Shown here: one piece after another, positions 27,787 to 49,854 of the stretch
How the letters are laid out: each line of letters opens with the position of its first letter
Numbering within the stretch: position 1 is the first letter of the stretch
The notes under the pieces: generated by a model
Databases searched by the model: none
What the model was told of the DNA's origin: nothing
What the model saw: the letters and a program-made list of their open reading frames with translations, nothing else
Translations under genes and position numbers: made by a program
NCBI GenBank assembly: GCA_013204985.1
Contig: JABMLG010000009.1
Coordinates: 1 to 64,000 of the forward strand
Reading direction: 5' to 3'
From: Microbacteriaceae bacterium VKM Ac-2855
GTDB taxonomy: Bacteria > Actinomycetota > Actinomycetes > Actinomycetales > Microbacteriaceae
Length of the DNA stretch: 64,000 nt

Positions 27787-28083
27787 GGTTTATTAAGGGC
27801 AGGTAAATTCCGCCCGGGCAGCGCACCGATTTCGACCGATCGCACAACACTGAGGAAAATGCTTCAGAGATTCTGGGGCTCCGGGGGCAGAAGTCGACGC
27901 TTCGACCTGGGCATCCTGATCCCGAGGCTCAAGAGGACTGCCCGAACGCAGCCCGCACGAGGGTCTCCAACCGGCACGGCGTCCCTGATCTGCGCGTTAC
28001 AGGGGACGCACCCGTCACTCGGCAGACAGCCGCTCGACCGACTTCAACACCAGCAACCGCCTCTCGAACACCAGGAGCAAGCC

Positions 28084-29004
28084 ATGTCGATCATCCTCGG
28101 AGCCAACCAGTACGGGAAGGCCGAGAACCGCGTCGTGCGCATCTACCGGGATTCCCCCCGGCACGAGATCCACGACATCAACGTCTCGAGCGCCCTGCGC
28201 GGCGACTTCTCGGCGGCGCACCTGGTCGGCGACCAGAGCGCGATCCTGCCCACCGACACGCAGAAGCAGATCGCATATGCGTTCGCGAAGTCGAAGGGTC
28301 TGGAGAACATCGAGGACTACGGTCTAGCTCTGGCGAACCACTACATCGACGACGTCGAGCCCGTCGAGGGAGCTCGCATCGAGATCGAGGAGTTCGCCTG
28401 GGAACGCGCGATCGTCGACGGCGTCGAGCACGACCACACGTGGCTGCGCTCGGGCCAAGAGGTGCGTCTCGCCTCGATCACCGTCGAGGGAAAGGGAGAC
28501 GCGAAGAAGACCTGGGTCACCGGTGGCCTGAAAGACCTCGTGCTGCTCAAGTCGACCGGGTCGGAGTTCCACGGCTTCCTCGAGGACGAGTACACCGTTC
28601 TGGTGCCGACGACCGACCGGGTCATGGCGACTTCGCTCGTGGCGAAGTGGCGCTTCGCGCCGACCGACCAGGACTTCGGCGGCATCGACTGGCAGGCGAC
28701 CTACGACGGCATCAAGACGGCGATGGTGAAGCAGTTCGCCACCGTGCAGTCCTTGGCATTGCAGCAGACGCTCTACATGATGGGCAAGGCGGTCCTGGAG
28801 GAGTTCCCGATCATCGCCGAGATCGTGTTCTCGGCGCCGAACAAGCACCACTTCGTTTACGATCTGGCGCCGTTCGGGCTCGAGAACAACAACGAGGTCT
28901 TCCACGCCGACGACCGGCCGTACGGGCTGATCCAGGCGACCGTCACTCGCGACGACGCGCCCGACGCCGGTCCGGCGTGGCGTGCCTACACGGGGCTCGT
29001 ATGA
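28084..29004 (+). CDS. Urate oxidase (uricase)
   Basis: Cofactor-free oxidase turning urate and O2 into 5-hydroxyisourate and H2O2. The 306 residues match the family length. The catalytic Lys12 (NQYGKAENR) and Thr57-Asp58 (PTDTQKQ) are present, as are SATGSEF-type and NKHH segments near 165 and 260. The ATG at 28084 has AGGAG 7 nt upstream. An in-frame ATG at 27859 would add 75 unrelated residues and is not preferred. It overlaps guaD by 4 nt. Confidence 0.96.
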   Translation: MSIILGANQYGKAENRVVRIYRDSPRHEIHDINVSSALRGDFSAAHLVGDQSAILPTDTQKQIAYAFAKSKGLENIEDYGLALANHYIDDVEPVEGARIEIEEFAWERAIVDGVEHDHTWLRSGQEVRLASITVEGKGDAKKTWVTGGLKDLVLLKSTGSEFHGFLEDEYTVLVPTTDRVMATSLVAKWRFAPTDQDFGGIDWQATYDGIKTAMVKQFATVQSLALQQTLYMMGKAVLEEFPIIAEIVFSAPNKHHFVYDLAPFGLENNNEVFHADDRPYGLIQATVTRDDAPDAGPAWRAYTGLV

Positions 29005-30416
29005 GCCCCGTCACGGCGTCCCGGGCAGGGGTGCACCGCGGGCATGTCTTCCACATCGCGGGGTCCGGGTCCGTCTCCGAGGCCGAACAGAATCTCGTCT
29101 CGGTGCCCGATGGCGCCCTCGTCGTCGATGAAGCCGGAACCATCGTCTGGGTCGGGCCGTACGCGGCGCTGCCCGCCGACTACAGCTCGTGGCCCGTTAC
29201 GGGCGACGGCTCCGCGTACCTGATCCCGGGGTTCGTCGACACGCACATCCACTATCCGCAGACCTACTCCACGGATGCCTACGGCGGCGGCCAGCTGCTG
29301 GAATGGTTGGAGAACTGCATCTTCCCGGCGGAGGCACGGCTCGCCGACGACGACTTCGCGCGCGCTGCGGCGAAGGAGTTCACGCGGCACCGCGTGCAGG
29401 CGGGCACGACGGCGGCGATGGTCTTCGGTTCCGCCTTCCCCTGTGCGCAGGACGCACTCTTCGAAGAGACGCAGGCGGCCGGCCTGCGGCTGGTGAGCGG
29501 ACGCGGGGTGCAGACCAGCGGATCCGCGTCCGCTGCGCCTCTGTTGACGAGTGAAGCGGATGCGATCCGCCTCGTCTCGGAGGAGATCGAACGCTGGCAC
29601 GCTGTCGACACGGGCGATGCGGCGACGGCGCTGCTGCAGGTCGCGGTCGTGCCTCGGTTCTCGCTCTCGGTCACGCGGCAGACACTCGCGGCACTCGGTG
29701 AACTGTACGACGACGTCCGCGGGCGCGGCGTGTACTTCCACTCGCATCTGAACGAGAACAATCGACCGGGAAACGGTGAGATCGCCGTCGTGAAGTCGAT
29801 GTACGAGGTCGACTCGTACCTCGACACGTACGACGGCAGGTTCCTCGCCGGTTCGAAGGTCGGCGGATCGTCCCTACTCGGTCGGCGCTCCATCCTGGCC
29901 CACGCCGTGCACTGCCAAGACGCCGAACTCGCGCGGATGGCCGAGACCGGCACGTCGATCGCGCACTGCCCCACGTCGCAGCAGTTCCTCGGATCCGGGA
30001 CGATGCCGTGGAAGCGCACGGTCGCGGCCGGGGTGAACATCGCACTCGGCTCGGATATGGGTGGCGGCGACGAATGGCTGCTCTCGCGAGTGCTGAACGA
30101 CGTGTACAAGGTGCACATCTCCGAATCCGGTGACGACGGGGTGGCCGTGTCACCGGCCGAATTGCTCTTCACCGGAACTTTGGCGGGCGCTCGCGCTCTC
30201 GACATGGAGCACCGCTTCGGCAACTTCGACCTGGGCAAGGACGCGGACTTCCTGCGCATCGAGCCCGATCGCTGGGAACCGCTCGCCGCGGTGCTCTCGC
30301 GGGGCATCCGCGCCGAGGACGAGGCCATGGCCACCTCGCAGACGCTCTTCGCCCTCCTCATGGCCCTGCGCGAACCCGCCATCGCCGCCGTCCACGTGCA
30401 GGGCCGCGCCCTGTAG
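29001..30416 (+). CDS. guaD: Guanine deaminase GuaD
   Basis: Deaminates guanine to xanthine, the substrate of the dehydrogenase at 13.5-17.1 kb. The 471 residues show the zinc motif FVDTHIHYPQ (His82, His84), the substrate segment HSHLNENNRPGNGEI, HAVHCQD and the closing Asp in GSDMGGGDEW. It starts within the uricase stop (ATGA). A perfect 22-bp stem at 30424 follows the stop codon by 7 nt. Confidence 0.95.
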   Translation: MSPVTASRAGVHRGHVFHIAGSGSVSEAEQNLVSVPDGALVVDEAGTIVWVGPYAALPADYSSWPVTGDGSAYLIPGFVDTHIHYPQTYSTDAYGGGQLLEWLENCIFPAEARLADDDFARAAAKEFTRHRVQAGTTAAMVFGSAFPCAQDALFEETQAAGLRLVSGRGVQTSGSASAAPLLTSEADAIRLVSEEIERWHAVDTGDAATALLQVAVVPRFSLSVTRQTLAALGELYDDVRGRGVYFHSHLNENNRPGNGEIAVVKSMYEVDSYLDTYDGRFLAGSKVGGSSLLGRRSILAHAVHCQDAELARMAETGTSIAHCPTSQQFLGSGTMPWKRTVAAGVNIALGSDMGGGDEWLLSRVLNDVYKVHISESGDDGVAVSPAELLFTGTLAGARALDMEHRFGNFDLGKDADFLRIEPDRWEPLAAVLSRGIRAEDEAMATSQTLFALLMALREPAIAAVHVQGRAL

Positions 30417-33118: not shown

Positions 33119-33466
33119 TCAGCTCCCGCGATACGTCGAGTACGCGAACGGGCTCAGCAGCAGCGGAATGTGGTAGTGCGCGCGCTCATCCGCCAGCTCG
33201 AAACTGATCGAGACCTCGGGGTAGAAACCCGTCTGCGCGGTCGCCGAGAAGTACGCCTCCGTGTCGAACACCACCCGGTAGATGCCGGCCTCCAGCGCCT
33301 CGGGGCCGAAGTCGCCGACGCGGCCGTCGGCGTCCGTCACGGCCGTCGCGAGGACCTCCCACCCTGCCCCGAGCTTGGCGGACAGCTCGACCGGGACCCC
33401 GGCCGCCGGCCGACCTGAGACCGCGTCGAGGACATGCGTGGTGACGTGGCTGCGGTGCGGGCTCAT
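33119..33466 (-). CDS. pucM: 5-Hydroxyisourate hydrolase
   Basis: Transthyretin-related protein that hydrolyses 5-hydroxyisourate to OHCU. Its 115 residues contain the signature residues His11 (THVLDAVSGRPA), Arg49 (TDADGRVGD), His97 and His99 (AHYHIPLLLSP), and the terminal YRGS, which separates the enzyme from transthyretin. It overlaps uraD by 4 nt. Confidence 0.96.
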   Translation of the reverse strand: MSPHRSHVTTHVLDAVSGRPAAGVPVELSAKLGAGWEVLATAVTDADGRVGDFGPEALEAGIYRVVFDTEAYFSATAQTGFYPEVSISFELADERAHYHIPLLLSPFAYSTYRGS

Positions 33467-34008
33467 TCGGTCTTCTCCTCGGTGGGCCGGGCAGCGGATG
33501 CGTCGTCGAAGGCCGGCGCGAACAGGCTGCGGATGCGTAACAGTGCGATCTCGCGCAGCTCGGAGCCGACCACGAACGACTCCGTCTCGTCGTCGAGTTC
33601 GAGCCGGCGGTGCAGCTCCGCCAGGATCTCGGCACGCGAACGGCCGGCAGCGCGGATGAGGAAGACGCGGCCGAAGCGCTGCTCGTAGGCACGGTTGCCG
33701 TCGAGCAGGGCGGCGGCGAGCATCTCGTCGCTCGACTGGCTGCTGGCCTGCTCGGAGGCGGAGAAGGCGGAGGATCGCCCAGCACCGGCGTGCTTCTCGC
33801 CGATACGCGGATGATCGGCGAGAGCTTCGTCGACCTCGGCGGGCGACAGCGGGGACGCCGCGGATCGTGCGACATCGATCAGCGCGTCGAGGGAGGAGTA
33901 AGGGGCGCGTCGGGTTACGTCGTCGACCCAGCGTGGCACGGCGAGGCAAGCGAGCAGGCCGGTGCGGAGCTCGGCGTCGGTGGGGTGCGTCATGGGGTGT
34001 CGGGCCAT
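33463..34008 (-). CDS. uraD: OHCU decarboxylase
   Basis: Converts OHCU to (S)-allantoin. The catalytic segment is DHPRIGEKHAG (His66), followed by SASEQASSQSSDEMLAAALLDGN. A GNRAYEQRFGRVFLIRAAGRS block closes the core. The ATG at 34008 gives 181 residues. An ATG at 33993 would give 176 and is equally plausible, since neither has a good SD. It opens the uraD-pucM-pucR operon, divergent from mocA. Confidence 0.93.
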   Translation of the reverse strand: MARHPMTHPTDAELRTGLLACLAVPRWVDDVTRRAPYSSLDALIDVARSAASPLSPAEVDEALADHPRIGEKHAGAGRSSAFSASEQASSQSSDEMLAAALLDGNRAYEQRFGRVFLIRAAGRSRAEILAELHRRLELDDETESFVVGSELREIALLRIRSLFAPAFDDASAARPTEEKTE

Positions 34009-34668: not shown

Positions 34669-35082
34669 TCACGACTCCGTCTCCCACGCCTCGGCCGCGG
34701 CGCGCCACGCGAGCGTTGCACACTTCGCCCGCACGGGGTTGCCCGCCAACGAGAGCAGCGCTTCGGCATCGCCGAGCCCCGTGACCGGCGTGCGGTCGCG
34801 CATCCCCTCGAGAAAACGCGCGATCGTCGCGAGGTCAGGCGAGAGCTCGGCGAGCATGGATGCACTCGCCTGCGACACCTCGCAACCGCGGCCCTCCCAG
34901 GCGACGCGCGTGCCCTCATTCGACACGACGAGCGCGAGTGAGATGACATCTCCGCAGGTCGGGCTGATGAGTCTCACCGCGCACGATGCCGCCTGCTCGG
35001 GTAGACCCGCGCCGACGCGGCGACGCGCGTGGTCGAGGATCAGTTCGGTCGGGGTGACCGCACCGTCGAGCAGCGACGTCAT
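34669..35082 (-). CDS. SufU/NifU-like FeS assembly protein
   Basis: A 137-residue SufU-type protein. In other bacteria SufU passes sulfur from SufS to the SufBCD scaffold. All expected ligands are present: SPTCGDVIS, GRGCEVSQASASM and RAKCATLAW (three Cys and one Asp). No sufS, sufB or sufC gene is nearby. It ends the pucG-allC-rpiR operon and overlaps rpiR by 4 nt. A role in supplying the 2Fe-2S clusters of the purine enzymes is possible but inferred only from location. Confidence 0.82.
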   Translation of the reverse strand: MTSLLDGAVTPTELILDHARRRVGAGLPEQAASCAVRLISPTCGDVISLALVVSNEGTRVAWEGRGCEVSQASASMLAELSPDLATIARFLEGMRDRTPVTGLGDAEALLSLAGNPVRAKCATLAWRAAAEAWETES

Positions 35083-35915
35083 CGTCGTTCCTCCAGTTCG
35101 CCGAGTTCGTCGTACAGCGTCGTGATCCCGGCGATCCGCTCACGGGCATCGCGCGGGTTCGCGCTGAGCACCCCGGCCGCCAACAGGTTGGCCAGGCTCA
35201 TCGCCGCCGAGTAACTGTCGAATGCCGAGACGCTGTCGACCGGGCACTCGAGCCACGTCGAAACGTGTTCGGTGTACCGCCGCGCCTGACCGTCGGCGAT
35301 CAGCACGACGGGGACGCCGCGGTCGCCGAGCGCGTGCACGATCGAGGCGAACGACGCGGGCCGGCGGCGGAAACCGACGACGACCGCCACGTCGTTCGCC
35401 TCGAGGGCGACGACGTCCTCCCCCAGCGACTGACCCGGCTGTGGCGCGAGCCTTACCCGCTCGCGCGCCTGGGCGAGTTGCTGGCGCAGGTGCAATGCGA
35501 TCGGGTAACTGTTGCGCAGGCCGATCACCGCGACCTCGCGTGCTTCGGCGATCAGACTCACGGCCTTCTCGAGCCGGCCGTTCTCGAGCCCGGCGATCAT
35601 CTTCGCGTGATTGGCCGCCTCCTGTTCGCTGTGAGTCGAGAGGACCGTCGCGCCGGCACCGATCGGTACCCCTTCGCTGCGCAACGTTCGTGCGTGCTCG
35701 CGAACCTCCTGCGAGTTCGAGAAGCCGAGCCGGCGGAACAGCCGCGACACGGTCGCCTTCGAGACGCCGCTGTGCTGCGCGAGCTCGGTCGCGTTGTACA
35801 CGGCGAGATCGCCGAGGTGGTCGAGGATGAAGTCGGCCGCGCGCTGCTCCTGCCGCGACAGCTCGCCGTAGCTGACGTCGATGCGTTGGCCGATGTCCAT
35901 CGTCACGGCTTCCAT
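35079..35915 (-). CDS. MurR/RpiR-family transcriptional regulator
   Basis: A 278-residue regulator. The N-terminal RpiR helix-turn-helix (1-77) reads LSRQEQRAADFILDHL, then AQHSGVSKATVSRLFRRLGF. The C-terminal SIS domain (about 120-260) normally binds phosphosugars or other small ligands. It is in the operon with allC and pucG. RpiR proteins often bind GAAA/TTTC palindromes, which fits the shared motif in the promoters here. Confidence 0.88.
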   Translation of the reverse strand: MEAVTMDIGQRIDVSYGELSRQEQRAADFILDHLGDLAVYNATELAQHSGVSKATVSRLFRRLGFSNSQEVREHARTLRSEGVPIGAGATVLSTHSEQEAANHAKMIAGLENGRLEKAVSLIAEAREVAVIGLRNSYPIALHLRQQLAQARERVRLAPQPGQSLGEDVVALEANDVAVVVGFRRRPASFASIVHALGDRGVPVVLIADGQARRYTEHVSTWLECPVDSVSAFDSYSAAMSLANLLAAGVLSANPRDARERIAGITTLYDELGELEERR

Positions 35916-35919: not shown

Positions 35920-37155
35920 CTAGTGCGCGGCCGCGAAAGCGTGCACGGCGGCCTCGAACGCGTCGAGCGAGACGGCGACGTCCTCCTCCGTCACGTTCTC
36001 CTCCGGGTGGTGGCTGACGCCGCCCTCGCATCGGATGAAAAGCATCGCGTAGTCGGTGAGATCGGCGATGGCCATCGCGTCGTGCCCGGCCTTCGAGAAC
36101 AGCACCATCGGGTCCTCGTCACCGGTCGAGACGATACCGGCGCGGATGACGTCCTGCAGCGCATCCGATGCGACCACGGCCGGCGCGCTGTGCGTCTCCT
36201 CCACGGTGAAGCTCAGCTTGCGCCGCTGGCAGGTGCGCAGGATCTCGGCCTGGATCTCGCTCCAGACCCGATCGCGTGCCGCGTCGAACTCGGCGCGGAG
36301 ATCGAGGCTGAAGTCCACACGACCCGGGATCACATTGACCGCCCCCGGGAACGCCTGCAACCGACCGACGGTGGCGATGCAGCCGTTGTCTCGGGCGAGC
36401 CGCTCGATGGTGAGCACCGCCTCCGCGGCTCCGGCCAGGGCGTCGCGGCGGCGGTTGAAGGGCACGCCCCCGGCGTGGCCGGCCTTGCCCGTGAGCGTGA
36501 GCGCGAACCGTCGGGCGCCGGCGATCGAGGAGACGACGCCGAGGGCACGATCCGCCTCCTCGAGGTACGGCCCCTGCTCGATGTGCGCCTCGAGGTATCC
36601 GAGGGTGTCCGCCTTCGAACGGGCGGCGCTGAGGACCTTCGACGGGTCGAGACCGAACGCCTTGAACGCCTCGACGAGCGAGACGCCGTTCTTGTCCTCG
36701 AGCTCCATCCAGTGCTTGTCCCAGGTGCCCGCGACGGCGCGCGACCCGAGCAGCGCGGTGCCGAAGCGGGTGCCCTCCTCATCGCCGAACGCGATCACCT
36801 CGACCGCGAACGGGAAGCGCGTGCCCGCGGCGTTCAACCGCGAGACGACCGCGATCGCGAGCATCACGCCGAGGATGCCGTCGTACTTACCGGCGTTCGG
36901 CACGGTGTCGAGGTGCGAGCCGAGCAACAGAGCCGGCGCATCGGGTCCGGTGCCCTCGTAGCGCCCGCACTGGTTGCCGGCGGCGTCCTGCCACGTCGAC
37001 ATACCGGCCTCGATCATCCACGCAGCGGCCATCGCGTTGACGCGGGCGTGCTCGGGCGAGAGGTAGACGCGCTCGATGGCGCCGCGGGTGCTCGAGACGA
37101 GAGCGAGCCGCTCGCAGCGGTCCATGATCTCCCCAGCGGTGACGACGCTGGTCAC
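35920..37155 (-). CDS. allC: Allantoate amidohydrolase AllC
   Basis: M20-family metal enzyme that removes ammonia and CO2 from allantoate, giving ureidoglycine. The 411 residues carry metal ligands in LLGSHLDTV (His81), KYDGILG (Asp92) and FGDEEGTRFG (Glu126-Glu127). The later HIEQGP and FSKAGHDAM segments are also present. The GTG start overlaps the pucG stop by 4 nt. Carbamoylase or ureidoglycolate relatives share the fold, but the pucG neighbour favours allantoate. Confidence 0.92.
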   Translation of the reverse strand: MTSVVTAGEIMDRCERLALVSSTRGAIERVYLSPEHARVNAMAAAWMIEAGMSTWQDAAGNQCGRYEGTGPDAPALLLGSHLDTVPNAGKYDGILGVMLAIAVVSRLNAAGTRFPFAVEVIAFGDEEGTRFGTALLGSRAVAGTWDKHWMELEDKNGVSLVEAFKAFGLDPSKVLSAARSKADTLGYLEAHIEQGPYLEEADRALGVVSSIAGARRFALTLTGKAGHAGGVPFNRRRDALAGAAEAVLTIERLARDNGCIATVGRLQAFPGAVNVIPGRVDFSLDLRAEFDAARDRVWSEIQAEILRTCQRRKLSFTVEETHSAPAVVASDALQDVIRAGIVSTGDEDPMVLFSKAGHDAMAIADLTDYAMLFIRCEGGVSHHPEENVTEEDVAVSLDAFEAAVHAFAAAH

Positions 37156-38414
37156 GACAGGCCTCCGGTGACCTCGAGGCTCGCATCCTGGTAGATCTCG
37201 TACGCGGCGCCGACACCGCCGCCGGCCGTGATGGTCGCGCCGGCACGGCGCAGGACCGCCTCGAGGGAGGCGAGGGTCGTGAGGACCGCGTCGATGCGGG
37301 CGTTGTACCCCATCGTGCCGATGCGCCACACCTTGCCGTGCAGCGGCCCGAAGGACGTGCCGATCTCGATGCCGAAATCGTCCAGCATCGCCGACCGCAC
37401 CGCGTCGCCGTTCACCGAATCCGGGATGTGCACCGCGACCACGTTGTTCATCTTGAACTCGAGGTCGCCGAAGACCTTCAGGCCCAGGCCCTGCACACCG
37501 TGCAGCATCGCCGTTCCGTGCACGGCGTGCCGGGCGACGGCGTTCTCGATGCCTTCCTCGACGAGCAGGCGGGCGCACTCGCGCGCGCCGTAGAGCATGC
37601 TGGTCGCCTCGGTGTGGTGGTTGAGGCGCTTCGCGCCCCAGTAGTCGAAGATCATGCCCATGTCGAAGTAGTTCGAGCGCACCGGGAAGGCGCTGACCTC
37701 GTCGCCCTCCGAGCGGATGCCTGCCTCGATCGACTTGCGCGCGTTGATGACGGCGACGGCCTTCTCGGAGAAGGTGACGGGGCTCGAGCCGGACGGGCCG
37801 CCGAGGCACTTCTGCAAGCCGGCCGACACGGCGTCGAGACCCAACGCATCCGTGTGGAAGGTGTTGCCGGCGAGGGAGGCGGTGACATCGGTGTAGAACA
37901 GCACGCCGTTGCGCTCGCAGATCTCGCCGAGGCCCTCGAGCGGCTGGGCCATGGTGGTCGCGGTGTCGCCGTGCACCACAGCGAGGATCTTCGGCCGCAC
38001 TTTCTCGATGGCCGCCTCGATCGCCGCGGTGGTGAACACCTGGCCCCACGGCACCTCGATGATGTGCACCTCGGCTCCGCACCGCTCAGCGATCTCGCGG
38101 AGCAGGTGGCCGAACCGGCCGAAGACCGGCACGAGGACCTTGTCGCCGGGCTCGATCATCGAGACCAGCGCAGCCTCGATCCCCGCGCGGCTGGTGCCGT
38201 CGACCAGCAGGGTGTGCTCGTTGTCGGTGACGAACACCTCGCGGTACAGCGCCTGCGTCTCGTTCATGTAGGCGGTCATCGCCGGGTCGTACTGCCCGAC
38301 GAGCTGGGCCGACATCGCCCGGAGCACTCGCGGATCGGCGTTGATGGGCCCGGGACCCATCAGCAGCCGGGGCGGCGGGTTGATCGGGAGGGCGCGGATC
38401 GACGACGGGTGCAC
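37152..38414 (-). CDS. pucG: Ureidoglycine-glyoxylate aminotransferase PucG
   Basis: Class V PLP enzyme that transfers the amino group of ureidoglycine to glyoxylate, giving oxalurate and glycine. The 420 residues show RLLMGPGPINADPRVL at 16-31, PLP-site residues Asp176 (YTDVTAS) and Lys202 (AGLQKCLGG). The GTG start at 38414 has AAGGAG 18 nt upstream, which is far. An in-frame ATT only 9 nt from that SD is a possible unusual start. It opens the pucG-allC-rpiR-sufU operon. Confidence 0.9.
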   Translation of the reverse strand: MHPSSIRALPINPPPRLLMGPGPINADPRVLRAMSAQLVGQYDPAMTAYMNETQALYREVFVTDNEHTLLVDGTSRAGIEAALVSMIEPGDKVLVPVFGRFGHLLREIAERCGAEVHIIEVPWGQVFTTAAIEAAIEKVRPKILAVVHGDTATTMAQPLEGLGEICERNGVLFYTDVTASLAGNTFHTDALGLDAVSAGLQKCLGGPSGSSPVTFSEKAVAVINARKSIEAGIRSEGDEVSAFPVRSNYFDMGMIFDYWGAKRLNHHTEATSMLYGARECARLLVEEGIENAVARHAVHGTAMLHGVQGLGLKVFGDLEFKMNNVVAVHIPDSVNGDAVRSAMLDDFGIEIGTSFGPLHGKVWRIGTMGYNARIDAVLTTLASLEAVLRRAGATITAGGGVGAAYEIYQDASLEVTGGLS

Positions 38415-38486
38415 GGTCGAAATGGGGAATCACTCCTTCAGTCGGCGAAAAGCCTGTTTCAGTGAACTCAGACTACTGCAACATCT

Positions 38487-38503
38487 GTTTCACGCGTGTT
38501 TCG
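38487..38503. promoter_or_regulatory. Candidate operator upstream of pucG
   Basis: GTTTCACGCGTGTTTCG lies about 75 bp before the pucG start. It matches 53352-53368 upstream of the pyrimidine operon at 15 of 17 positions. A weaker GTTTCAGTGAAC lies at 38456-38467. Confidence 0.5.
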
Positions 38504-38559
38504 CGATGCGCGTCCAGCGGATTGTCGCTGCGTCCCACGCTGCCCAGGCAACCAGTGCC

Positions 38560-40101
38560 TCAGAGCGAGGCCGCCAGAGCGATGAGGGCCTGGTCGGAGC
38601 CGCGCGGGCCGACCAGGCAGAGGCCCACGGGCGCCCTACCGACCCGCATCAGCGGTGCGGAGACGGCGGGATACCCGCCGATGCCGGCGACGCAGGTCAT
38701 CCTCAGCGTGCCCGTTCGTGCCGCGTCGATCTCAGCGGCGGATGCGGTCAGCGACGGAGCGGGCGAGGATGCAGAAGGCAGCAGCAGGATGCGCCCACCG
38801 ATCGCCTCGTCGAGGGCCGCGCGGTACTCCGCCAGCCGCGCGCGCATCCGCTCGACCGTATCGTCGTCGATGGTCGCCGCGACATCGAAACGCGACTGCA
38901 CGTCGGGCGCGAGTCGACCTGGATGCGCGGTGATCCATTCACCGTCGCTCTGCCAGGCCTCGGCGGCCTGCACCAGACGGAAGGCCTCGAACAGCTCGGG
39001 CAGCGGGCCGAGGTCGACGGCCTCGGGCGCGGTGATCGCTCCGGAGGAGACGAGCGCTTCGATCGTGGCGACGAAAGCGGCGCGCACCTCGGGAGCTGCC
39101 GCGGCGAGCAGCGCCTCGTCGACGACGAATCCGGGCGCCGGCGCCGCCGTGTCCTCCGGCAGACTCGCGGCAGCGACCGAGGCCAGCGTCGACGCGTCGC
39201 GCGTCAGCCAGCCGACGGTGTCGAAGCTCGGAGCGAGCGGAAGCAGGCCCTCGACGCTCACGGCGCCGTGACTCGTGCGGATGCCCCACAGCCCCTGGTA
39301 GGACGCCGGCACGCGGATCGAGCCGGCGGTATCGGTGGCGAGGCCGATGCTGGCGTGGCCGAGCGCGACAGCGGATGCGGGACCGCTCGACGACCCGCCC
39401 GGGATCGCGCCCGGCACCGCCGCGTTGGGCGGGGTGCCGTACCCGGAGTTGCGCCCCGCGATGCTGTACGCGAACTCGTCGGTCTGCGCGATCCCGCGGA
39501 CGGCGGCGCCGGCGGCGAGCAGGGCCGCGAGCGCGGGTGCCGTGCGCGTCTGAACATCCGCGTCCGCGAGGTAGGCGGGGATTCCCGCACCGATCGCGAA
39601 GTGCTCGAGAGCGAAGAGATCCTTGACGGCGACGGTCAGCCCGTCGAGCGGGCCAGAACCGGTCGGGGTGACGAGTGGCGAGCCGATCACGCGCCAGATG
39701 CTGGGGTTCACCGCCGGCGCCGGAGCTCCGACCTGTGCGGCCTCGACCTGCCAACTGCCGGACGCTCGCGACCACAGCTGGGTGACGAGCCCGCGTCCGC
39801 CCGCTCGCGGGGCGTTCACCGAGACCACGAGCGCTCGATCATCCGTCAGCACCCGTACATGCAACTCGACTATTGCGCGCGCTGGGGCGCCGCCCCGCCG
39901 GCCGCGGAACGCCGTGATGGCGTCGTGGCCCACGAGCAGCCCGCTCGCATCACCACGCAGGGTCGCAGCGCCGAGCGCGAAGGCATCGGCCAACGCCGGC
40001 ACGTCATCGGCCGCCAGCGCCGCTTCGTAGGCGTCGAAGGCGGCGATCAGGCCGTCGGGCAGCTCGCCGACGACACTGGTGGTAACGGTCGGCTCAGTCA
40101 A
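38560..40101 (-). CDS. HpxZ/AtzH-like domain fused to amidase; predicted oxalurate amidohydrolase
   Basis: A 513-residue fusion. Residues about 15-125 look like the NTF2-fold DUF3225 domain of HpxZ and AtzH (VGHDAITAFRGRRG, VTQLWSRASGSWQV). Residues 135-513 are an amidase-signature enzyme with Lys160 (TVAVKDLF), the cis-Ser in GGSSSG (237-239) and nucleophile Ser261 (DTAGSIR). In Klebsiella, HpxY (amidase) and HpxZ take oxalurate onward after a PucG-type step. The gene lies directly upstream of pucG, which makes oxalurate. Function is inferred from this match. Confidence 0.75.
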   Translation of the reverse strand: MTEPTVTTSVVGELPDGLIAAFDAYEAALAADDVPALADAFALGAATLRGDASGLLVGHDAITAFRGRRGGAPARAIVELHVRVLTDDRALVVSVNAPRAGGRGLVTQLWSRASGSWQVEAAQVGAPAPAVNPSIWRVIGSPLVTPTGSGPLDGLTVAVKDLFALEHFAIGAGIPAYLADADVQTRTAPALAALLAAGAAVRGIAQTDEFAYSIAGRNSGYGTPPNAAVPGAIPGGSSSGPASAVALGHASIGLATDTAGSIRVPASYQGLWGIRTSHGAVSVEGLLPLAPSFDTVGWLTRDASTLASVAAASLPEDTAAPAPGFVVDEALLAAAAPEVRAAFVATIEALVSSGAITAPEAVDLGPLPELFEAFRLVQAAEAWQSDGEWITAHPGRLAPDVQSRFDVAATIDDDTVERMRARLAEYRAALDEAIGGRILLLPSASSPAPSLTASAAEIDAARTGTLRMTCVAGIGGYPAVSAPLMRVGRAPVGLCLVGPRGSDQALIALAASL

Positions 40102-41182
40102 AATCGCTCACCCGGATCCGTGCGTGCGCGCCCTTCACGAGGTCGACGACCTGCGAGATGTTGAAGTCGGTGGCGGCGCTGAGGTAGGCGAAGGCCTGGC
40201 TCGGGTCCATCCCGTAGCGCGCCTGCAGGAGCGCGATCGCGGCGCGAACGCAGTTCTGCACCGCGACGTCGAGGTCGGCGTCCATGCCCGTCGGCACGAG
40301 GAACTCGCTGGTCTCGCCCAGCGGACCGGTGAGCTCGCCGAAAGCGGCGACCGCCTCCGCCCTCGGCAACACCTCGAAGCGCACTCGAACGCGCAGCGAC
40401 GCCTCCATCGCCGTTAGAGCCACTTCGCCGTCACCCTGCGCGAAGTGTGGGTCGCCCACGTAGGCGAGCGCCTCCGGCACCTGCACCGGCAGATACAGCG
40501 TCGTGCCCGCCGTGAGCAGGCTGATGTCGATGTTGCCGCCGAAAGGGCCTGGTGGCACCGAGTGCGGACGCACGTCCCCGGCGACGGCGACACCCATGAT
40601 GCCGAGGAACGGGCGCAGCGGGAACCGCGCGACCTTCTCGCCCCCGAGAACCAGCGGCAGCACGCCGCGCTGCGAACCGTCGGGCGCGTCCTCGACCGAT
40701 GCGAAGGCGCTGTAGCTGCCCGGGCCCAGCGGGTACTCCCCCGGCAACGCTCCGCGTCCGTGCCGGTTCGAGATCACACCGTACGGCACCCGCGGCGTCG
40801 CCTCGAGGAGGGTGAGCTTGAGCACATCACCCGGACGCGCGCCGCGCACAGCGATCGGACCGGTCACCACGTGCGGTCCGTCCGTCGCCGGGTCGCGCCG
40901 GTACGACGAGGCTGCGAGCGCGACCGCATCCGCGAGCACCCCGTCGCTGTGCACGCCGTGCGCGCCGAAGAACGCCCGCGGATCGCGGCCCTGGTCCTCC
41001 AGCACACCTTCGTGACTCAGCGTGTCGATCGTGACCTCGGCGCCGGAATCGACCGTGAGAACGACACGATCGGAGGCGCACGGCAGGCGGCCCCAGAGCA
41101 CGGTATCGAGGGTCGCGGGCAGGTAGTCGGCATCCGCCGCCACCTGCTCCCCGGGCTGCAGTACCCATTCGGCCAAGCTCAT
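40094..41182 (-). CDS. Acetamidase/formamidase-family protein
   Basis: A 362-residue FmdA-type amidase with family blocks VTIDTLSHEG near 50, GPIAVRGARPGDVLKL near 107, HSVPPGPFGGNIDISLL near 207 and TDFNISQVVDLVKG near the C-terminus. Characterised members hydrolyse short amides such as formamide and acetamide. It overlaps the amidase fusion by 8 nt, so the two are coupled. In this setting oxamate is an attractive substrate (inference). AAGGA lies 9 nt before the ATG. Confidence 0.85.
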   Translation of the reverse strand: MSLAEWVLQPGEQVAADADYLPATLDTVLWGRLPCASDRVVLTVDSGAEVTIDTLSHEGVLEDQGRDPRAFFGAHGVHSDGVLADAVALAASSYRRDPATDGPHVVTGPIAVRGARPGDVLKLTLLEATPRVPYGVISNRHGRGALPGEYPLGPGSYSAFASVEDAPDGSQRGVLPLVLGGEKVARFPLRPFLGIMGVAVAGDVRPHSVPPGPFGGNIDISLLTAGTTLYLPVQVPEALAYVGDPHFAQGDGEVALTAMEASLRVRVRFEVLPRAEAVAAFGELTGPLGETSEFLVPTGMDADLDVAVQNCVRAAIALLQARYGMDPSQAFAYLSAATDFNISQVVDLVKGAHARIRVSDFD

Positions 41183-41290
41183 CGGAGGCGTCCTTCCCGT
41201 CGTCGTCGCCTCCGAGGCTAGCCGTTCGCCGACGGCCCCCAGACGGGTGCGGCGGCCTTCATGGCATTGTTAGCACGGCCGAAATCGACG

Positions 41291-41308
41291 GTTACCTGCA
41301 CGAAACGT
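41291..41308. promoter_or_regulatory. Candidate operator upstream of the formamidase-amidase pair
   Basis: GTTACCTGCACGAAACGT, about 110 bp before the formamidase start and 55 bp before the DUF1275 gene. It is the second copy of the motif seen at 26291-26308. Confidence 0.45.
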
Positions 41309-41362
41309 CGGCCCTCCCTCCGCTCCCTCACGACCGATCGGACCATCACCGTGCTCGGAAAA

Positions 41363-42067
41363 ATGCGCCGCAACCAGACCGGCGTCCACCTCGGACTCAT
41401 GCTCGCGCTCACCTTCTCGACCGGCATCATCGACGCCGTCGGCTACCTCGGCCTCGACCGCGTGTTCACCGGCAACATGACGGGCAACGTCGTGATCCTC
41501 GGTATGGCTCTCGCCGGCGCGGACGACCTGCCGATCATCGGCCCGATCCTCGCTCTGGCGGGCTTTATGCTCGGTGCCGCGATCGGCGGACGCGTGCTGC
41601 GCCCCGTCAAGGTCGGCTGGACGCACCGCTCGACGATCCTGTTCACGATCGTGGGGGTCGTGATGGCCGCGCTCGCCATCGTCCTCGCCGTTGTGCCCGA
41701 GCATCCAGAGCCACTGGCGCTCTCGGTGACGGCGACCCTCGGCTTGGTGATGGGCCTGCAGGCCGCCACCGCCCGCCATCTCGCGGTGAAGGATGTGACG
41801 ACCGTGGTGGTCACTTCGACCATCACCGGCTTGGCGGCGGATTCGCGCCTCGGTGGCGGTCACGGCCAGCCGTGGTTCCGCCGCCTCGCCGCCGTGATAC
41901 TGATCGGCGCCGGCGCGGGAGTCGGTGCGCTGGCGTTGAACGTGAGCCTTGCGCTGGGCCTCGGCATCGCCGCGTTCATCACCGTGGTCGCGGCCCTGAT
42001 CGGCCACGTCACGGGCCATGTCAAGCACACCCCGGCCAAGGCGGAGGCGGAAGCAGCCGCTGCCTGA
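41363..42067 (+). CDS. DUF1275 (YoaK-like) membrane protein
   Basis: A 234-residue inner-membrane protein with about six helices. The family signature FSTGIIDAVGYLGLDRVFTG leads into NMTGNVVILGMAL near 15-45. The ATG at 41363 with GGAAAA before it is preferred to a GTG at 41351. No biochemical role is established for the family. A link to ureide transport is tempting because no other permease lies in the purine block, but the sequence does not show it. Confidence 0.8.
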   Translation: MRRNQTGVHLGLMLALTFSTGIIDAVGYLGLDRVFTGNMTGNVVILGMALAGADDLPIIGPILALAGFMLGAAIGGRVLRPVKVGWTHRSTILFTIVGVVMAALAIVLAVVPEHPEPLALSVTATLGLVMGLQAATARHLAVKDVTTVVVTSTITGLAADSRLGGGHGQPWFRRLAAVILIGAGAGVGALALNVSLALGLGIAAFITVVAALIGHVTGHVKHTPAKAEAEAAAA

Positions 42068-44785: not shown

Positions 44786-46111
44786 TCAGAGGCCGACCGA
44801 GGTGAAGGCGTCGTCGTAGATGGCGAGAGCCCGCGCGACCTCGTCGTCGGTGACGACGCACGGCGGAACGACGTGGATGCGGTTGTCGGCCGTGAACGGC
44901 AGAAGATCGCGCTCGAGCAGGGCCGCTTTCAGCGATCCGATCACCGACGCCTCGACGGGAGTCTTCGCCGCCGCATCCGACACCAGATCGAGCGCCCAGA
45001 ACACGCCGACGCCGCGTACCTCGCCGATCACCGGATGCTTCGCCGCCAACTCCGCCAGACCCGGTCCGAGGTGATCGGCACCGATCCGCGCGGCGTTGGC
45101 GACGATTCCCTCCTCCTCCATCGCGTCCAGGCTCGCGACGATCGCCGCCATCGCGAGCGGATGCCCGGAGTACGTCAGCCCGCCCGGGAAGACCGTTTCA
45201 TCGAAGTGACGCGAGATCTCGGGTGAGATCACCACACCTCCGGCGGGAACGTAGCCCGAGTTCACTCCCTTGGCGAAGGTGATCAGATCGGGCACGACAC
45301 CCTCGTCGAGCGTCTGGAAGGCGAACCAGTCGCCGGTGCGGCCGAAACCGGCCATCACCTCATCGAGGATCAGCACGATGCCGTAGCGGGTCGCCAGCTC
45401 GCGAACGCCCGCGAGATAGCCGGGCGGCGGCACGATGACGCCGGCGGTGCCCGGGATCGTCTCCAGCAGGATCGCCGCGATCGACGCCGCTCCCTCGGCC
45501 TGGATCACCCGCTCGAGGTGGTGCAGCGCGCGCTGCGTCTCCTGCTCCGGCGAATCCGACCAGAACTCGGAGCGGTAGGTGAAGGGCCCGAAGAAGTGCG
45601 CGTGGCCGCGCGCGAACTGGTTCGGCACCCGGCGCCAGTCCCCCGTGGCGACGATGGCGGCGCCGGTGTTGCCGTGGTACGAGCGATAGGTCGAGAGCAC
45701 AGTGTCGCGGCCGGTGACCAGGCGCGCCATCCGGATCGCGTTCTCGTTCGCATCCGCACCGCCGTTGGTGAAGAAGACCTTCTCGAAGCCGTCGCCCGCA
45801 CGATCGAGGATGCGCGCCGCGGCCTCGCCGCGCGCGAGGTTGGCGTGACTGGGCGCGACGGTCGGGAGCAGCGCGGCCTGGGCCTGGATAGCGGCGACGA
45901 CCTTCGGATGGGTGTGGCCGATGTTGGTGTTGATCAGCTGGCTCGAGAAGTCGAGGTATTCGCGGCCCGCATAGTCCCAGACCGTGCTGCCGGAGCCACC
46001 GGCGATCACCATCGGCGCGAGGGCGGCCTGCGCGGACCAGGAGTGGAAGACGTGGGCGCGGTCGAGGGCGGATGTCCGCTCTCCTGCTGCCGGGTCGGGG
46101 GTGAAGCTCAT
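44786..46111 (-). CDS. Class III aminotransferase, probable beta-alanine transaminase
   Basis: A 441-residue PLP enzyme. The PLP lysine is Lys281 in FAKGVNSGYVP and the Asp is Asp250 in LILDEVMAGFGRTG. FTNGGADANENAIRMARL near 114-131 is typical of the omega-aminotransferase group. It closes an operon that makes beta-alanine, so transfer from beta-alanine to pyruvate or 2-oxoglutarate is the best guess, giving malonate semialdehyde. AAAGG lies 8 nt before the ATG. Confidence 0.85.
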   Translation of the reverse strand: MSFTPDPAAGERTSALDRAHVFHSWSAQAALAPMVIAGGSGSTVWDYAGREYLDFSSQLINTNIGHTHPKVVAAIQAQAALLPTVAPSHANLARGEAAARILDRAGDGFEKVFFTNGGADANENAIRMARLVTGRDTVLSTYRSYHGNTGAAIVATGDWRRVPNQFARGHAHFFGPFTYRSEFWSDSPEQETQRALHHLERVIQAEGAASIAAILLETIPGTAGVIVPPPGYLAGVRELATRYGIVLILDEVMAGFGRTGDWFAFQTLDEGVVPDLITFAKGVNSGYVPAGGVVISPEISRHFDETVFPGGLTYSGHPLAMAAIVASLDAMEEEGIVANAARIGADHLGPGLAELAAKHPVIGEVRGVGVFWALDLVSDAAAKTPVEASVIGSLKAALLERDLLPFTADNRIHVVPPCVVTDDEVARALAIYDDAFTSVGL

Positions 46112-46186
46112 GGTGCTGCCTTTCGATGGAGGGGGTCGTCACCGCGTCCCGCGGAGAGCGCTACGCCGTGACGACCCCCGTAGTGC

Positions 46187-47335
46187 CTAGTTGCCGCCCT
46201 CGGTGAGGGTGACCTCGATGGGCGCGAAGTCGGCACCTTCGGTGTCGACCCCCTCGTCGGCGAGTTCGGCGAGCGCCTTCTCGACGTACTCGTTGGAGTA
46301 GGCCGTCGCCGGCGGATCCTCGGAGATGATCGTCGCGCCGGTCTCGTTCTCGGTCGCCTTGGCGATATCGACGGTCTGCGCCCAGGCGGCTTCATCGATC
46401 ATGCCGATGCCTCCGGAGGTGGAGGGCCAGATCAACTTGTTGACCTCGTTGGTCATCCAGAGCTGGTGGCTGGTGCCGAGGGTCGAACCGGCCGCGGTGA
46501 CGACGTCGGCCGCCGCCTCCGGGTTGTCGCGGGCGTAGATCCAGCCCTTGATCGACGCCTTGATGAAGGCGACGGTCTGCGCGGCGTAGTCCTCGTCGTC
46601 GGCCAGCTTGTCCGCATCCGCCCAGATCGCGTCCTGGAGCATCGCCGTACCGACGTCGTTCCAGTTGATCACGTTGAGGTCGTCGGGTGTGTAGAGCTCG
46701 CCGGTGGCCGGGTTCACGGTCTCGAGCACCTGGGCGTACTCGTTGTAGGTCATCGCCTGGGCCGCGTCGATGTCGCCCGCGAGGAAGCCGTTCATATCGA
46801 ACGCCTGCTGCACGAGCGAGATGTCGGCGAGGGCGACGCCGTCCTTCTGCATGCCGGCGAAGAGCTCCCACTCGTTGCCGTAACCCCAGCTGCCGACGTT
46901 CTTGCCGGCGAGTTCGGTGGGTGAGGTGATGCCCTTGTCCTTGAACGAGATCTGCGTCGTGGCGGAGCGCTCGAAGATCTGCGCCACGTCGGTGATGTTG
47001 GCGCCCTGCTCGATCGAGCCGAGCACCTTCGGCACCCACGAGATCGCGTAGTCGGCGTCGCCACCGGCGAGCACGTCCTGCGGGACGATGTCGCCGCCGC
47101 CCTCCGCGATCGTGACGTCGAGACCTTCATCCTCGTAGTAGCCCTGGTCGACCGCGGCGTAGTAGCCGGCGAACTGCGCCTGGGCGACCCACTGCAGCTG
47201 CAGGGTCACCGGGGTGAGCCCACCGGCGTCATCGGACGAGTCGCCCGAAGACGACCCTCCGCTGCAGCCGGTGAGCGCGAGCGCGACAGTGGCGATGCCT
47301 GCCGTCGCGATCGTGAGACGAGTGCTGTGTTTCAC
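46187..47335 (-). CDS. ABC substrate-binding lipoprotein (NMT1/SsuA type)
   Basis: Extracytoplasmic binding protein with a lipobox LALTGC (Cys24) after a signal peptide. The 382 residues belong to the NMT1/THI5-like group, which binds pyrimidine precursors, sulfonates, nitrate and related compounds. The start is GAAACAC-containing GTG with GAGGAGG upstream. Its location between the permeases and aminotransferase predicts a pyrimidine-type ligand such as uracil, dihydrouracil or a hydantoin. The ligand is not proved. Confidence 0.88.
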   Translation of the reverse strand: MKHSTRLTIATAGIATVALALTGCSGGSSSGDSSDDAGGLTPVTLQLQWVAQAQFAGYYAAVDQGYYEDEGLDVTIAEGGGDIVPQDVLAGGDADYAISWVPKVLGSIEQGANITDVAQIFERSATTQISFKDKGITSPTELAGKNVGSWGYGNEWELFAGMQKDGVALADISLVQQAFDMNGFLAGDIDAAQAMTYNEYAQVLETVNPATGELYTPDDLNVINWNDVGTAMLQDAIWADADKLADDEDYAAQTVAFIKASIKGWIYARDNPEAAADVVTAAGSTLGTSHQLWMTNEVNKLIWPSTSGGIGMIDEAAWAQTVDIAKATENETGATIISEDPPATAYSNEYVEKALAELADEGVDTEGADFAPIEVTLTEGGN

Positions 47336-47408
47336 TGTTCCTCCTCGTGGTGCGGGTACTGGGGTGCGGGTGTTTTCCCGTGGTGGGGGTGGTGCGGGCG
47401 CGGAGTGG

Positions 47409-48173
47409 TCAATCGGCCCGGCGGCGGCGCGACACGAGGGTCTCGAGGCCGAGGGTCGTGCAGTAGAAGACCAGTCCGACGATGACGGCGCCCAGCACGT
47501 ACGCGTAGGCGAGCGCGTAGTTGCTGGAGGCGGCGGCGGAGGTGATCGACTTGCCGAGGCCGCCGATCGGTCCGCCGAAGTATTCGGCGATGAGGGCCGA
47601 GATCACCGCGAGCGACGAGGCGATCCGCAGTCCGGTGAAGAGGAAGGGCAAAGCACCCGGCAACGTGATCGTCCGGGTCGCCTGCCACGGCGTCGCCGCG
47701 TAGGCCCGCATCAGGTCGCGGTGCACGGGTCGCGCCTGGCGAAGACCGCGCAGCGAGTTCACGTACACAGGCACGAAGACCGCGATCGCCGCGACCAGTT
47801 GCCGTGCGGTCTCGACGTTCGCGCCGAACATCGTGTACAGCACGGGCGCCAGCGCCACGATCGGAATCACGGCGAGCGCCGCCACGACCGGTGCGCTGAT
47901 CTCGTCGAACGGCTTCAACAGTGCAGCCAGCACGGCGAAGACAACGGCCACGATCGCGCCGATGATCAGCCCGACGAGCGCGTTGCCGCCCGTGATCAGG
48001 CCGCTCGTCCAGACCGTGGGGATGTTCTGCCCGAACTCCTCCGCGATGAGCAGCGGGCTGGGCAGCACGAACGGCTTGATCTCGAGCGCCGTCACCGCGA
48101 TCTGCCAGAGTGCGACGACGACGACCCCGAGGAGTACCGGGGCGAGTACCGTCCGGGTGGCGGTGGCGTTCAT
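47409..48173 (-). CDS. ABC transporter permease
   Basis: A 254-residue membrane subunit with about six helices. The EAA loop reads DLMRAYAATPWQATRTITLPGALP near 155-178. Domain type is SsuC/TauC/ThiX. It overlaps the ATPase gene by 4 nt. With the second permease at 48982 the importer is probably a heterodimer. Confidence 0.9.
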   Translation of the reverse strand: MNATATRTVLAPVLLGVVVVALWQIAVTALEIKPFVLPSPLLIAEEFGQNIPTVWTSGLITGGNALVGLIIGAIVAVVFAVLAALLKPFDEISAPVVAALAVIPIVALAPVLYTMFGANVETARQLVAAIAVFVPVYVNSLRGLRQARPVHRDLMRAYAATPWQATRTITLPGALPFLFTGLRIASSLAVISALIAEYFGGPIGGLGKSITSAAASSNYALAYAYVLGAVIVGLVFYCTTLGLETLVSRRRRAD

Positions 48174-48985
48174 CGGTTCTCGACCCCGCGGGGTCCGCTG
48201 GCCGGCTGGCCGTGCAGCAGCTCGCGCACCGCGCTGACGTTGGCGAAGAAGGCCTCGTCCTCTCGGATGCCCTCGTCGCGCGCCGCCGCATGGGGCAGGC
48301 CGACATCGAGGATGTCGCGGATGCGCCCGGGCCGCGGCGACATCACGACGACGCGGTCGGAGAGGAACACCGCCTCCGGAATCGAGTGCGTGACGAAGAC
48401 GACCGCGGCGCCCGTCTCGGCCGCGATTCGCAGCAGCTCCGTCTGCATCCGCTCGCGCGTCATCTCGTCGAGCGCGCCGAACGGCTCGTCCATCAGCAGC
48501 AGCTTGGGACTCTCGGCCAGGGCCCTCGCGATCGCGACGCGCTGCTGCATGCCGCCGGAGAGCTGGTCGGGGTAGGAGTTCGCGAAGTCGCCCAGACCCA
48601 CCAGTGCGAGCAGCTCGTCGACCCGCGCCGTGCGCTTCGCCTTGCCCATCCGATGCAATTCGAGCGGCAGTTCGATGTTCGAGCGGATGCTCCGCCATGG
48701 CAGCAGTCCCGCCTGCTGGAACGCGATGCCGTACTCCTGATCCAGCCGCGCCTGCCGAGCGCTCTTCCCGAACACCTGCACCGTGCCGTCGCTCGGGCTG
48801 TCGAGGTCGGCGATGATGCGCAGCAGGGTGGACTTGCCACAACCGGAGGGGCCGATCAGCGAGACGAACTCTCCCGCTGCGACCGTGAGGTCGACGTTCT
48901 CGAGCGCGGTGACGCCCGCGCCCTTCTTCGACGCGAACACCTTGGTGACGCGGGTCGCTTCGACGGCGTTGACGGTCGCGCTCAT
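48170..48985 (-). CDS. ABC transporter ATP-binding protein
   Basis: A 271-residue ATPase of the SsuB/TauB/ThiZ group. Walker A GPSGCGKST at 45-53, signature LSGGMQQ at 142-148, Walker B LLLMDEP at 162-168 and the H-loop THS near 199 are all present. It overlaps both permease genes by 4 nt. Confidence 0.93.
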   Translation of the reverse strand: MSATVNAVEATRVTKVFASKKGAGVTALENVDLTVAAGEFVSLIGPSGCGKSTLLRIIADLDSPSDGTVQVFGKSARQARLDQEYGIAFQQAGLLPWRSIRSNIELPLELHRMGKAKRTARVDELLALVGLGDFANSYPDQLSGGMQQRVAIARALAESPKLLLMDEPFGALDEMTRERMQTELLRIAAETGAAVVFVTHSIPEAVFLSDRVVVMSPRPGRIRDILDVGLPHAAARDEGIREDEAFFANVSAVRELLHGQPASGPRGVENR

Positions 48986-49854
48986 GCGGGCGACTCCCCT
49001 CTGCGATACGGCCGCAACGCGGCTCCGATGAGGGCGACGAACCCGGCGGCGACGAGCCCCACGAGCACGGCGCCGAAGATGGGGGCCCACGGCTTGGCGG
49101 GGTCGCCGCCGGCCGCGGAGGCGAACTCGATGATCATCCGGCCGATCCCGCCGCGCAGGCCGATGGAGACCTCGGCCACGACCGTGCCGATCACGGCGCT
49201 GATGGCGCCCAGGCGGAACGCGGGGATCAGGTAGGGCACGCTGGCCGGCAATCGCAGCCTCACCAGCGTTTTCCACCAGCCGACTCCGTAGACGCGCATG
49301 AGTTCGATGTGGTTGCGATCGGGCGACTCCAGGCCGCGGAGCGCTCCGATCGACACCGGGAAGAACGCGAGGTAGCTCGCGATCAGCGCGACGGACATCC
49401 AGTTCTCCCACTGGAACGCCCCGAGCTCGATCGCCGAACCCCAGCGCTTGACCAGAGGGGCGATCGCGATCAACGGCACGGTCTGGCTCAGCACGATCCA
49501 CGGCATGATGGCCGATTCCGCCGTGCGGAAGCGCTGCATCAGCATCGCCAGCAGCAGGCCCACCACCACGCCGACGACCCAGCCGACGGCCGCGACACCG
49601 AGGCTGAAGGCGCTCGCCTGCAGTACCGCGAGCCAGAGCGCGGGCGCGTTGCGTGCGCCGGTCACGGGCTCGCCGAGCCGCGTCAGCATGTCCCAGAGGT
49701 GCGGCATCGCCAGATCGCTCGTCCGCGGCAGCACGGTGAGGTCTCCGATCACCACTCCCGCGGTCGGGCCGATCGCCTTGTACGCCTCCCACACGACGGC
49801 GAGCAGCACGACACCGAGCACGCCGTACAGCGTTCGACGCACCGTGGGTGTCAT
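48982..49854 (-). CDS. ABC transporter permease, second subunit
   Basis: A 290-residue membrane protein with about six helices and the EAA-type segment IELMRVYGVGWWKTLVRLRLPASVPY near 185. It is longer than the partner at 47409. It starts 6 nt after the flavin oxidoreductase stop. Confidence 0.9.
   Translation of the reverse strand: MTPTVRRTLYGVLGVVLLAVVWEAYKAIGPTAGVVIGDLTVLPRTSDLAMPHLWDMLTRLGEPVTGARNAPALWLAVLQASAFSLGVAAVGWVVGVVVGLLLAMLMQRFRTAESAIMPWIVLSQTVPLIAIAPLVKRWGSAIELGAFQWENWMSVALIASYLAFFPVSIGALRGLESPDRNHIELMRVYGVGWWKTLVRLRLPASVPYLIPAFRLGAISAVIGTVVAEVSIGLRGGIGRMIIEFASAAGGDPAKPWAPIFGAVLVGLVAAGFVALIGAALRPYRRGESPA

Follow-up and report, generated by a model that had tools for sequence, protein, structure and literature searches.

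A predicted oxalurate-to-oxalate branch with an AtzH-amidase fusion in a purine-degradation cluster of a Microbacteriaceae bacterium

Within purine breakdown, the use of oxalurate has been poorly assigned. HpxY is described as an oxalurate amidohydrolase and HpxW as an oxamate amidohydrolase (PMC12625717, PMC5270733), and the oxalurate enzyme of Escherichia coli was, according to the report on it, identified only in 2024 (PMC11326118). In the AtzE-AtzG/AtzH system, the product of AtzEG is reported to be unstable, and AtzH to accelerate the whole cascade rather than the AtzEG step itself (PMC6219798). Here, we analyzed a stretch of 64,000 nucleotides from Microbacteriaceae bacterium VKM Ac-2855 (contig JABMLG010000009.1, positions 1 to 64,000 of the forward strand), called the window in the following, in which an FmdA-like gene, a gene fusing an AtzH-like domain to an amidase and pucG are consecutive on one strand, next to allC and inside a purine-degradation cluster. 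In this plant- or soil-type actinobacterium and many of its relatives, the fusion and the FmdA-like amidase probably carry purine waste through to oxalate and ammonia by the reactions predicted below, and on balance we favor reading the module as one of purine-nitrogen recovery that covers the last steps from oxalurate to oxalate.

The open reading frames of the module all lie on the minus strand. They code for the FmdA-like amidase of the acetamidase/formamidase family (40094-41182, 362 amino acids), a proposed oxamate amidohydrolase; for the fusion (38560-40101, 513 amino acids, TTG start), which joins an AtzH/HpxZ-like NTF2-type domain to an amidase-signature domain and is a proposed oxalurate amidohydrolase with an N-carboxyoxamate decarboxylase domain; and for PucG (37152-38414, 420 amino acids), the oxalurate-forming ureidoglycine-glyoxylate aminotransferase. 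The TTG start codon of the fusion sits within the 3' end of the FmdA-like gene, and the overlap between the two genes, read directly from the sequence, amounts to 8 nt (TTGACTGA), which agrees with the gene layout given in an earlier note on this DNA. PucG belongs to the Aminotran_5 family of Pfam, and its best solved relative is 3nnk ('Ureidoglycine-glyoxylate aminotransferase', 598.7 bits over residues 10-409), presumably the Klebsiella enzyme, followed by 3isl ('Purine catabolism protein pucG', 440.4 bits) and 1vjo (293.2 bits). The solved PucG-type enzymes are clearly preferred over other class V aminotransferases, and this bears out the PucG assignment of the same note.

In the proposed route, AllC would form ureidoglycine, which PucG, assigned by homology, would transaminate to oxalurate. 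The amidase half of the fusion would then hydrolyze the terminal amide of oxalurate, and by analogy its product would be N-carboxyoxamate, released along with ammonia. The AtzH-like half, which holds the Tyr/Arg pair of AtzH and most of its arginine pocket, would drive a faster loss of CO2 to oxamate. Finally, the FmdA-like enzyme would replace HpxW and convert oxamate to oxalate and ammonia. Domain content, residue conservation, gene order and co-occurrence are the grounds on which we propose all substrates, the assignment of each amidase to its step, the decarboxylation and any advantage of fusing the domains.

To follow the module through the family, we used a fixed sample of 199 Microbacteriaceae genomes, in which the amidase was found in 60 (E up to 1e-40), PucG in 57 (E up to 1e-100), the FmdA-like protein in 57 (E up to 1e-40) and the AtzH-like domain in 52. 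The amidase occurred in 57 of 57 genomes with PucG versus 3 of the 142 without it, 139 having neither. PucG and the FmdA-like protein occurred together in 54 genomes, each without the other in 3 and neither in 139; PucG and the AtzH-like domain occurred together in 51, with PucG only in 6, the domain only in 1 and neither in 141. Together with the gene order, the coupling of amidase and PucG supports the role in an oxalurate branch that the earlier note had put forward. The FmdA-like matches in the three genomes without PucG (G044, G056, G101) and that in G034 are distant (51-58% identity). Fusions account for 52 of the 55 places with an AtzH-like domain, the other three being G093:C12, G155:C53 and a match below the cut-off in G132. 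The three genomes with the amidase and no PucG look like remnants of a purine island: G039 is 83% complete, the amidase of G066 (L070) lacks the AtzH-like domain and stands beside UraD, UraH and xanthine dehydrogenase genes, and that of G139 (L052) stands beside molybdate-transport-like and molybdenum-cofactor genes. Among the 57 PucG genomes, the amidase was never lost, the FmdA-like enzyme was lost in three and the AtzH-like domain in six, a pattern expected if the amidase removes the product of PucG, the AtzH-like domain aids a self-running step and the FmdA-like enzyme acts last. The absence of the domain from six genomes would fit a step that also proceeds unaided, as the AtzEG product is reported to be unstable (PMC6219798).

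Residues 19-125 of the fusion matched the AtzH-like family PF11533 of Pfam (55.7 bits, cut-off 27, E 5.2e-15), which we take to be the later name of DUF3225. The earlier note had called this domain HpxZ/AtzH-like and had named DUF3225 as the family to compare it with; the comparison did not refute the call, which holds as regards the family and the catalytic residues and fails as regards the HpxZ equivalog NF033625, the sole NCBIfam match of the domain at E up to 0.1 (46.9 bits, cut-off 135). The catalytic residues Tyr22 and Arg46 of AtzH correspond to Y25 and R49 of the window fusion, both of which are invariant in an alignment of 30 sequences. We further compared 80 loci, which are the best 80 of at least 547 confirmed related places, lean to close relatives and lack independence (L125 and L126 come from the same chromosome, and the matches of L171 and L172 are identical). 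The residues equivalent to those of AtzH were kept in 80 (Tyr22), 79 (Arg46), 78 (Arg63), 78 (Arg66), 79 (Arg73) and 79 (Gln108) of them. The N-terminal domain was folded alone, since fold searches with the whole model gave amidases only among the matches listed, and the isolated model adopted a predicted AtzH fold (TM 0.79-0.90 to AtzH chains).

An alternative that is compatible with the rest of the proposed route is a merely structural or dimerizing role of the AtzH-like domain, with spontaneous decarboxylation and the amidase alone carrying out the oxalurate step. This would account for the amidase without the domain in 6 of the 57 PucG genomes and for the Rathayibacter iranicus locus (L135:8001-9293, plus strand), in which most of the domain is deleted in frame and the amidase is intact. 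The catalytic Tyr and the Arg set are nevertheless kept almost throughout the 80 loci, in a domain that has just eight invariant positions in the alignment of 30 sequences, and we regard a purely structural domain as unlikely. The R. iranicus locus represents a natural test case for the role of the domain.

The amidase half (residues 149-506) matched the Amidase family PF01425 (156.7 bits, cut-off 27). K160, S237 and S261, presumably the Ser-cisSer-Lys triad, are invariant in the 30 sequences and aligned in 2dc0 and 6c62. The nearest named family is PRK08310 (NCBIfam NF006169), just under whose cut-off of 391 the amidase half scored 372.7 bits and for which we know of no function. A small partner protein of the AtzG/HpxX type (PF13318) was matched in none of 20 genomes, the positive controls being equally silent.

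The FmdA-like protein matched the FmdA_AmdA family PF03069 (104 bits, cut-off 27) and has six solved relatives. The name 'formamidase' used in the earlier note needs correction, as the protein reached only 66.8 bits with the FmdA formamidase equivalog NF045496 (cut-off 500). Enzymes of the acetamidase/formamidase family act on small primary amides. Because oxamate is left over in the proposed route and the family uses such amides, the FmdA-like enzyme is the natural candidate for the oxamate step, which is the least secure of the assignments. There appears to be room for the supposed HpxW substitute, since no protein of PF01019, the superfamily of HpxW, was found in the window's own genome (G000), in a search whose controls matched in 8 of 14. 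Such proteins were found in 14 of the 22 genomes searched. A replacement of missing FmdA-like enzymes by HpxW was considered and rejected: PF01019 proteins occurred in six of seven genomes selected for the lack of a linked FmdA-like gene, three of which (G598, G599, G600) were checked at the locus only and one of which (G034) has a distant unlinked gene, versus 8 of 15 others, which is too weak a difference. Two individual candidates were rejected as well, because the PF01019 protein of G040 resembles 6j3a, with 5hft, which we take to be HpxW, scoring far lower, and the best one of G045 resembles ordinary gamma-glutamyltranspeptidases. AllG (PF06545), the marker of oxamic transcarbamylase, was absent from 20 of 20 genomes including that of the window, in a search which matched the E. 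coli control and did not extend to AllF and AllH.

All 80 loci had the AtzH-like domain; in 75 of them the gene immediately upstream of the fusion was the FmdA-like one, and 67 had PucG inside the fetched stretch. Three of the 13 loci without PucG stop soon after the fusion (L119, L121, L155), and two Curtobacterium loci without nearby PucG come from genomes that encode it at another place (G031, G591). A start codon in the frame of the fusion was found at -1, -4 or -8 relative to the stop codon of the FmdA-like gene in 70 of the 75 loci (-8 in 47, -4 in 23), indicating that a close coupling of both genes was retained. Forty hand-picked family loci (L046-L085), roughly one for each genus with some unusual cases added, contained the AtzH-like domain in 31, the FmdA-like gene directly upstream in 30 and PucG in 32 cases; the respective numbers for 12 more loci, eight of other families, two of the same family and two of a divergent paralogue, were 7, 5 and 4. 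Loci of Microbacteriaceae, Cellulomonas, Nocardioides and Propionibacteriales share the gene order of the module in varying contexts: it follows allantoinase in Cellulomonas, precedes UraD and UraH in Nocardioides and is near uricase and xanthine dehydrogenase in Frigoribacterium. Such differences in context from lineage to lineage mean that the linkage does not simply reflect a gene order handed down by descent.

The two parts of the fusion also occur in other layouts. In locus L096 of a relative (8579-10135, minus strand), a reverse fusion has the amidase first (best stretch 9-174; nearest family PRK08310, 274.8 bits) and the AtzH-like domain last (379-490). An unfused amidase with 35% identity to that of the window adjoins an HpxZ-like stretch (107.1 bits) in a different frame in L237 (8801-10491, minus strand), and in L091 an AtzH-like open reading frame lies upstream of an amidase on the same strand, with one other called gene intervening. 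This recurrent pairing in varied layouts speaks for a working relation of the parts. The pair of L237 lies near a gene resembling the urease alpha subunit, as judged by eye. With at least 547 related places, not every one of which was checked for both domains, the fusion architecture is common and its existence hence unsurprising; among the titles and abstracts listed in searches of open-licence papers, none describes it. A search for a shared operator gave no exact inverted repeat with 6-nt arms common to more than 2 of 103 upstream regions.

Several observations weigh against the route from oxalurate to oxalate. The N-terminal domain falls below the HpxZ cut-off, and the amidase half reached only 123.1 bits with NF006631 (cut-off 461) and 115.5 bits with TIGR02715 (cut-off 425.75), the models of the AtzE/HpxY family, which fails to support, at the level of family, the earlier equation of this half with HpxY. 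The pocket residues Phe94 and Arg96 of AtzH are without counterpart in the fusion, and Gln106 is replaced by V in the window and kept in 49 of the 80 loci. The Fisher p of 9.5e-47 for amidase and PucG ignores shared ancestry. In three genomes (G007, G090, G153), the FmdA-like gene adjoins PucG and the fusion is located elsewhere, in G007 next to recR and dnaX-like genes. Oxalyl-CoA decarboxylase was above its cut-off in none of 20 genomes, in a search limited to this one oxalate enzyme. PucG was missing from 8 of 20 chosen amidase-bearing genomes, and the FmdA-like gene and the fusion occurred without a PucG match in Kineosporia, Amycolatopsis and two Pseudonocardia genomes. Outside the family, PucG was looked for in ten genomes only (G229, G248, G483 and those of L137, L141, L159, L164, L169, L171 and L176; the family of L159 is not stated) and found in three. 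Near the pair of the Pseudonocardia locus L171, whose genome gave no PucG match, there are cupin, creatininase-family, NMT1-type binding-protein and luciferase-like monooxygenase genes, and in the Kineosporia locus L141, likewise from a genome without a PucG match, an isochorismatase-family gene adjoins the fusion, with an NMT1-type gene nearby. These neighbors possibly belong to another ureide pathway. In L169, both neighbors assignable to a family are unrelated.

Such loci and the genomes lacking PucG are what would be expected if the pair degraded another ureide or amide, taken up or derived from another route, and stood in purine clusters through a shared role in nitrogen supply. Within Microbacteriaceae, the close tracking of PucG by the amidase argues against this, and the three exceptions comprise an incomplete genome and two loci beside purine or molybdenum-cofactor genes, so we consider another substrate improbable. 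An exchange of roles, with the FmdA-like enzyme acting on oxalurate, the amidase half on oxamate (compare malonamidase E2 on malonamate) and the AtzH-like half on a carboxylated intermediate, likewise has little probability, since the FmdA-like enzyme and never the amidase is missing from PucG genomes, which fits the amidase acting first, and since the closest precedent in the chemistry of AtzH domains is the product of a ureido-type deamination (PMC6219798).

With the rest of the window, enzymes for the way from xanthine to oxalurate are predicted, the fusion and the FmdA-like gene forming the unassigned end. An AllC-like allantoate amidohydrolase (35920-37158, minus strand, start codon not fixed) reached 559.3 bits with NF006775 (cut-off 479) and just 209.8 bits with TIGR03176 (AllC; cut-off 597.75). 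It is followed on the minus strand by genes for an RpiR-type regulator (35079-35915; PF01418 and PF01380) and, between this regulator and a MobA-like gene, a SufU-like protein (34669-35082; TIGR01994, 71.3 bits, cut-off 92.5), which is present in the clusters of several relatives too and perhaps serves the iron-sulfur xanthine dehydrogenase. Also on the minus strand are UraD (33463-34005; OHCU decarboxylase, TIGR03180, 153.7 bits, cut-off 139.4) and UraH (33119-33460; hydroxyisourate hydrolase, TIGR02962, 136.9 bits, cut-off 87.45), both with start codons not fixed. Allantoinase AllB (26329-27708; TIGR03178, 559.3 bits, cut-off 357.85) and uricase (27727-29004; TIGR03383, 335.2 bits, cut-off 168.4) are encoded on the plus strand in a region which also contains a guanine deaminase-like gene (26329-30416 in all; 334.7 and 293.1 bits with guanine deaminase models, cut-offs 351 and 375.4). 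XdhC (25129-26217), xanthine dehydrogenase parts (13489-17141) and a PucR gene complete the cluster. The xanthine dehydrogenase-like protein of 935 amino acids (14334-17141, plus strand) carries its iron-sulfur domains N-terminally on the molybdenum subunit, with a separate FAD subunit. The region 44786-52655 (minus strand) holds a cluster for degradation of the pyrimidine or hydantoin type, with genes for a dihydropyrimidinase (TIGR02033, 544.7 bits, cut-off 393.25), a TIGR03842 LLM oxidoreductase, a class III aminotransferase and an NMT1-type ABC transporter.

A gene for a DUF1275 membrane protein (41261-42067, plus strand; PF06912, 117.3 bits) is divergent from the FmdA-like gene and thus from the module. 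Among the 80 loci, 57 contain such a gene, 49 of them divergent and within less than 1 kb of the 5' end of the module, one close by on the same strand and seven elsewhere in the locus; in L238 and L239 its neighbor is the FmdA-like gene, and in L240 the amidase. The E. coli YfdE paper mentions an Acetobacter aceti region uctB-oxc-uctC-duf1275, with DUF1275 beside oxalyl-CoA decarboxylase (PMC3720670), and DUF1275 is listed from TCDB among families that have their six-helix repeat in common with MFS transporters (PMC7778945). As to its function, we would guess that the protein transports oxalate or a ureide.

Taken together, we tentatively suggest, with somewhat less than even confidence in the whole, a widespread and hitherto unassigned actinobacterial end of purine breakdown in which the fusion deaminates oxalurate and decarboxylates the labile N-carboxyoxamate in place, the FmdA-like enzyme is a new kind of oxamate hydrolase unrelated to HpxW, the DUF1275 protein moves oxalate or a ureide across the membrane and the role of HpxZ in enterobacteria is the decarboxylation of N-carboxyoxamate. 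What is new is that the module is coupled almost completely to PucG, that the fused domain strictly conserves the catalytic residues of AtzH and that a reverse fusion exists, along with a testable division of labor. If the proposal is true, functions would be assigned to the AtzH-amidase fusion and to a formamidase-family enzyme, both carried by most of the 57 genomes with PucG in the sample of 199, ureide nitrogen would be recovered with no urea formed after allantoate, and domains of the AtzH/HpxZ type would be predicted to act generally as decarboxylases of N-carboxy amides. Because the domain is fused, the role of HpxZ becomes testable by a single active-site change in a single protein.

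Compared with hpxWXYZ of Klebsiella, where HpxY with HpxZ acts on oxalurate and HpxW on oxamate, the module shares the oxalurate setting, the tie between an HpxZ/AtzH-like domain and an amidase-signature enzyme and, for the oxamate step as proposed, an amidase of its own, but the parts form one protein, the amidase is of the PRK08310 type instead of the AtzE family and no PF01019 protein was found in its own genome. Oxamic transcarbamylase AllFGH of E. coli is reported to convert oxalurate to oxamate as well (PMC11326118), but consists of unrelated proteins, of which AllG was not found here. The PRK08310-type amidases are the nearest family to the amidase halves of both the window fusion, which scores below their cut-off, and the reverse fusion. 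With the FmdA/AmdA family, the window enzyme has PF03069 in common; it is not an FmdA equivalog and is tied to purine genes. The AtzE-AtzG/AtzH system of cyanuric acid breakdown in Pseudomonas sp. ADP differs in its unfused proteins, its amidase family, its pathway and the AtzH residues Phe94, Arg96 and the variable Gln106. The fusion resembles this system in its AtzH fold, in retaining Tyr22, Arg46, Arg63, Arg66, Arg73 and Gln108 and in the proposed order of deamination and decarboxylation: AtzE converts 1-carboxybiuret to 1,3-dicarboxyurea, which AtzH converts to allophanate, in parallel to the chemistry proposed here for the fusion.

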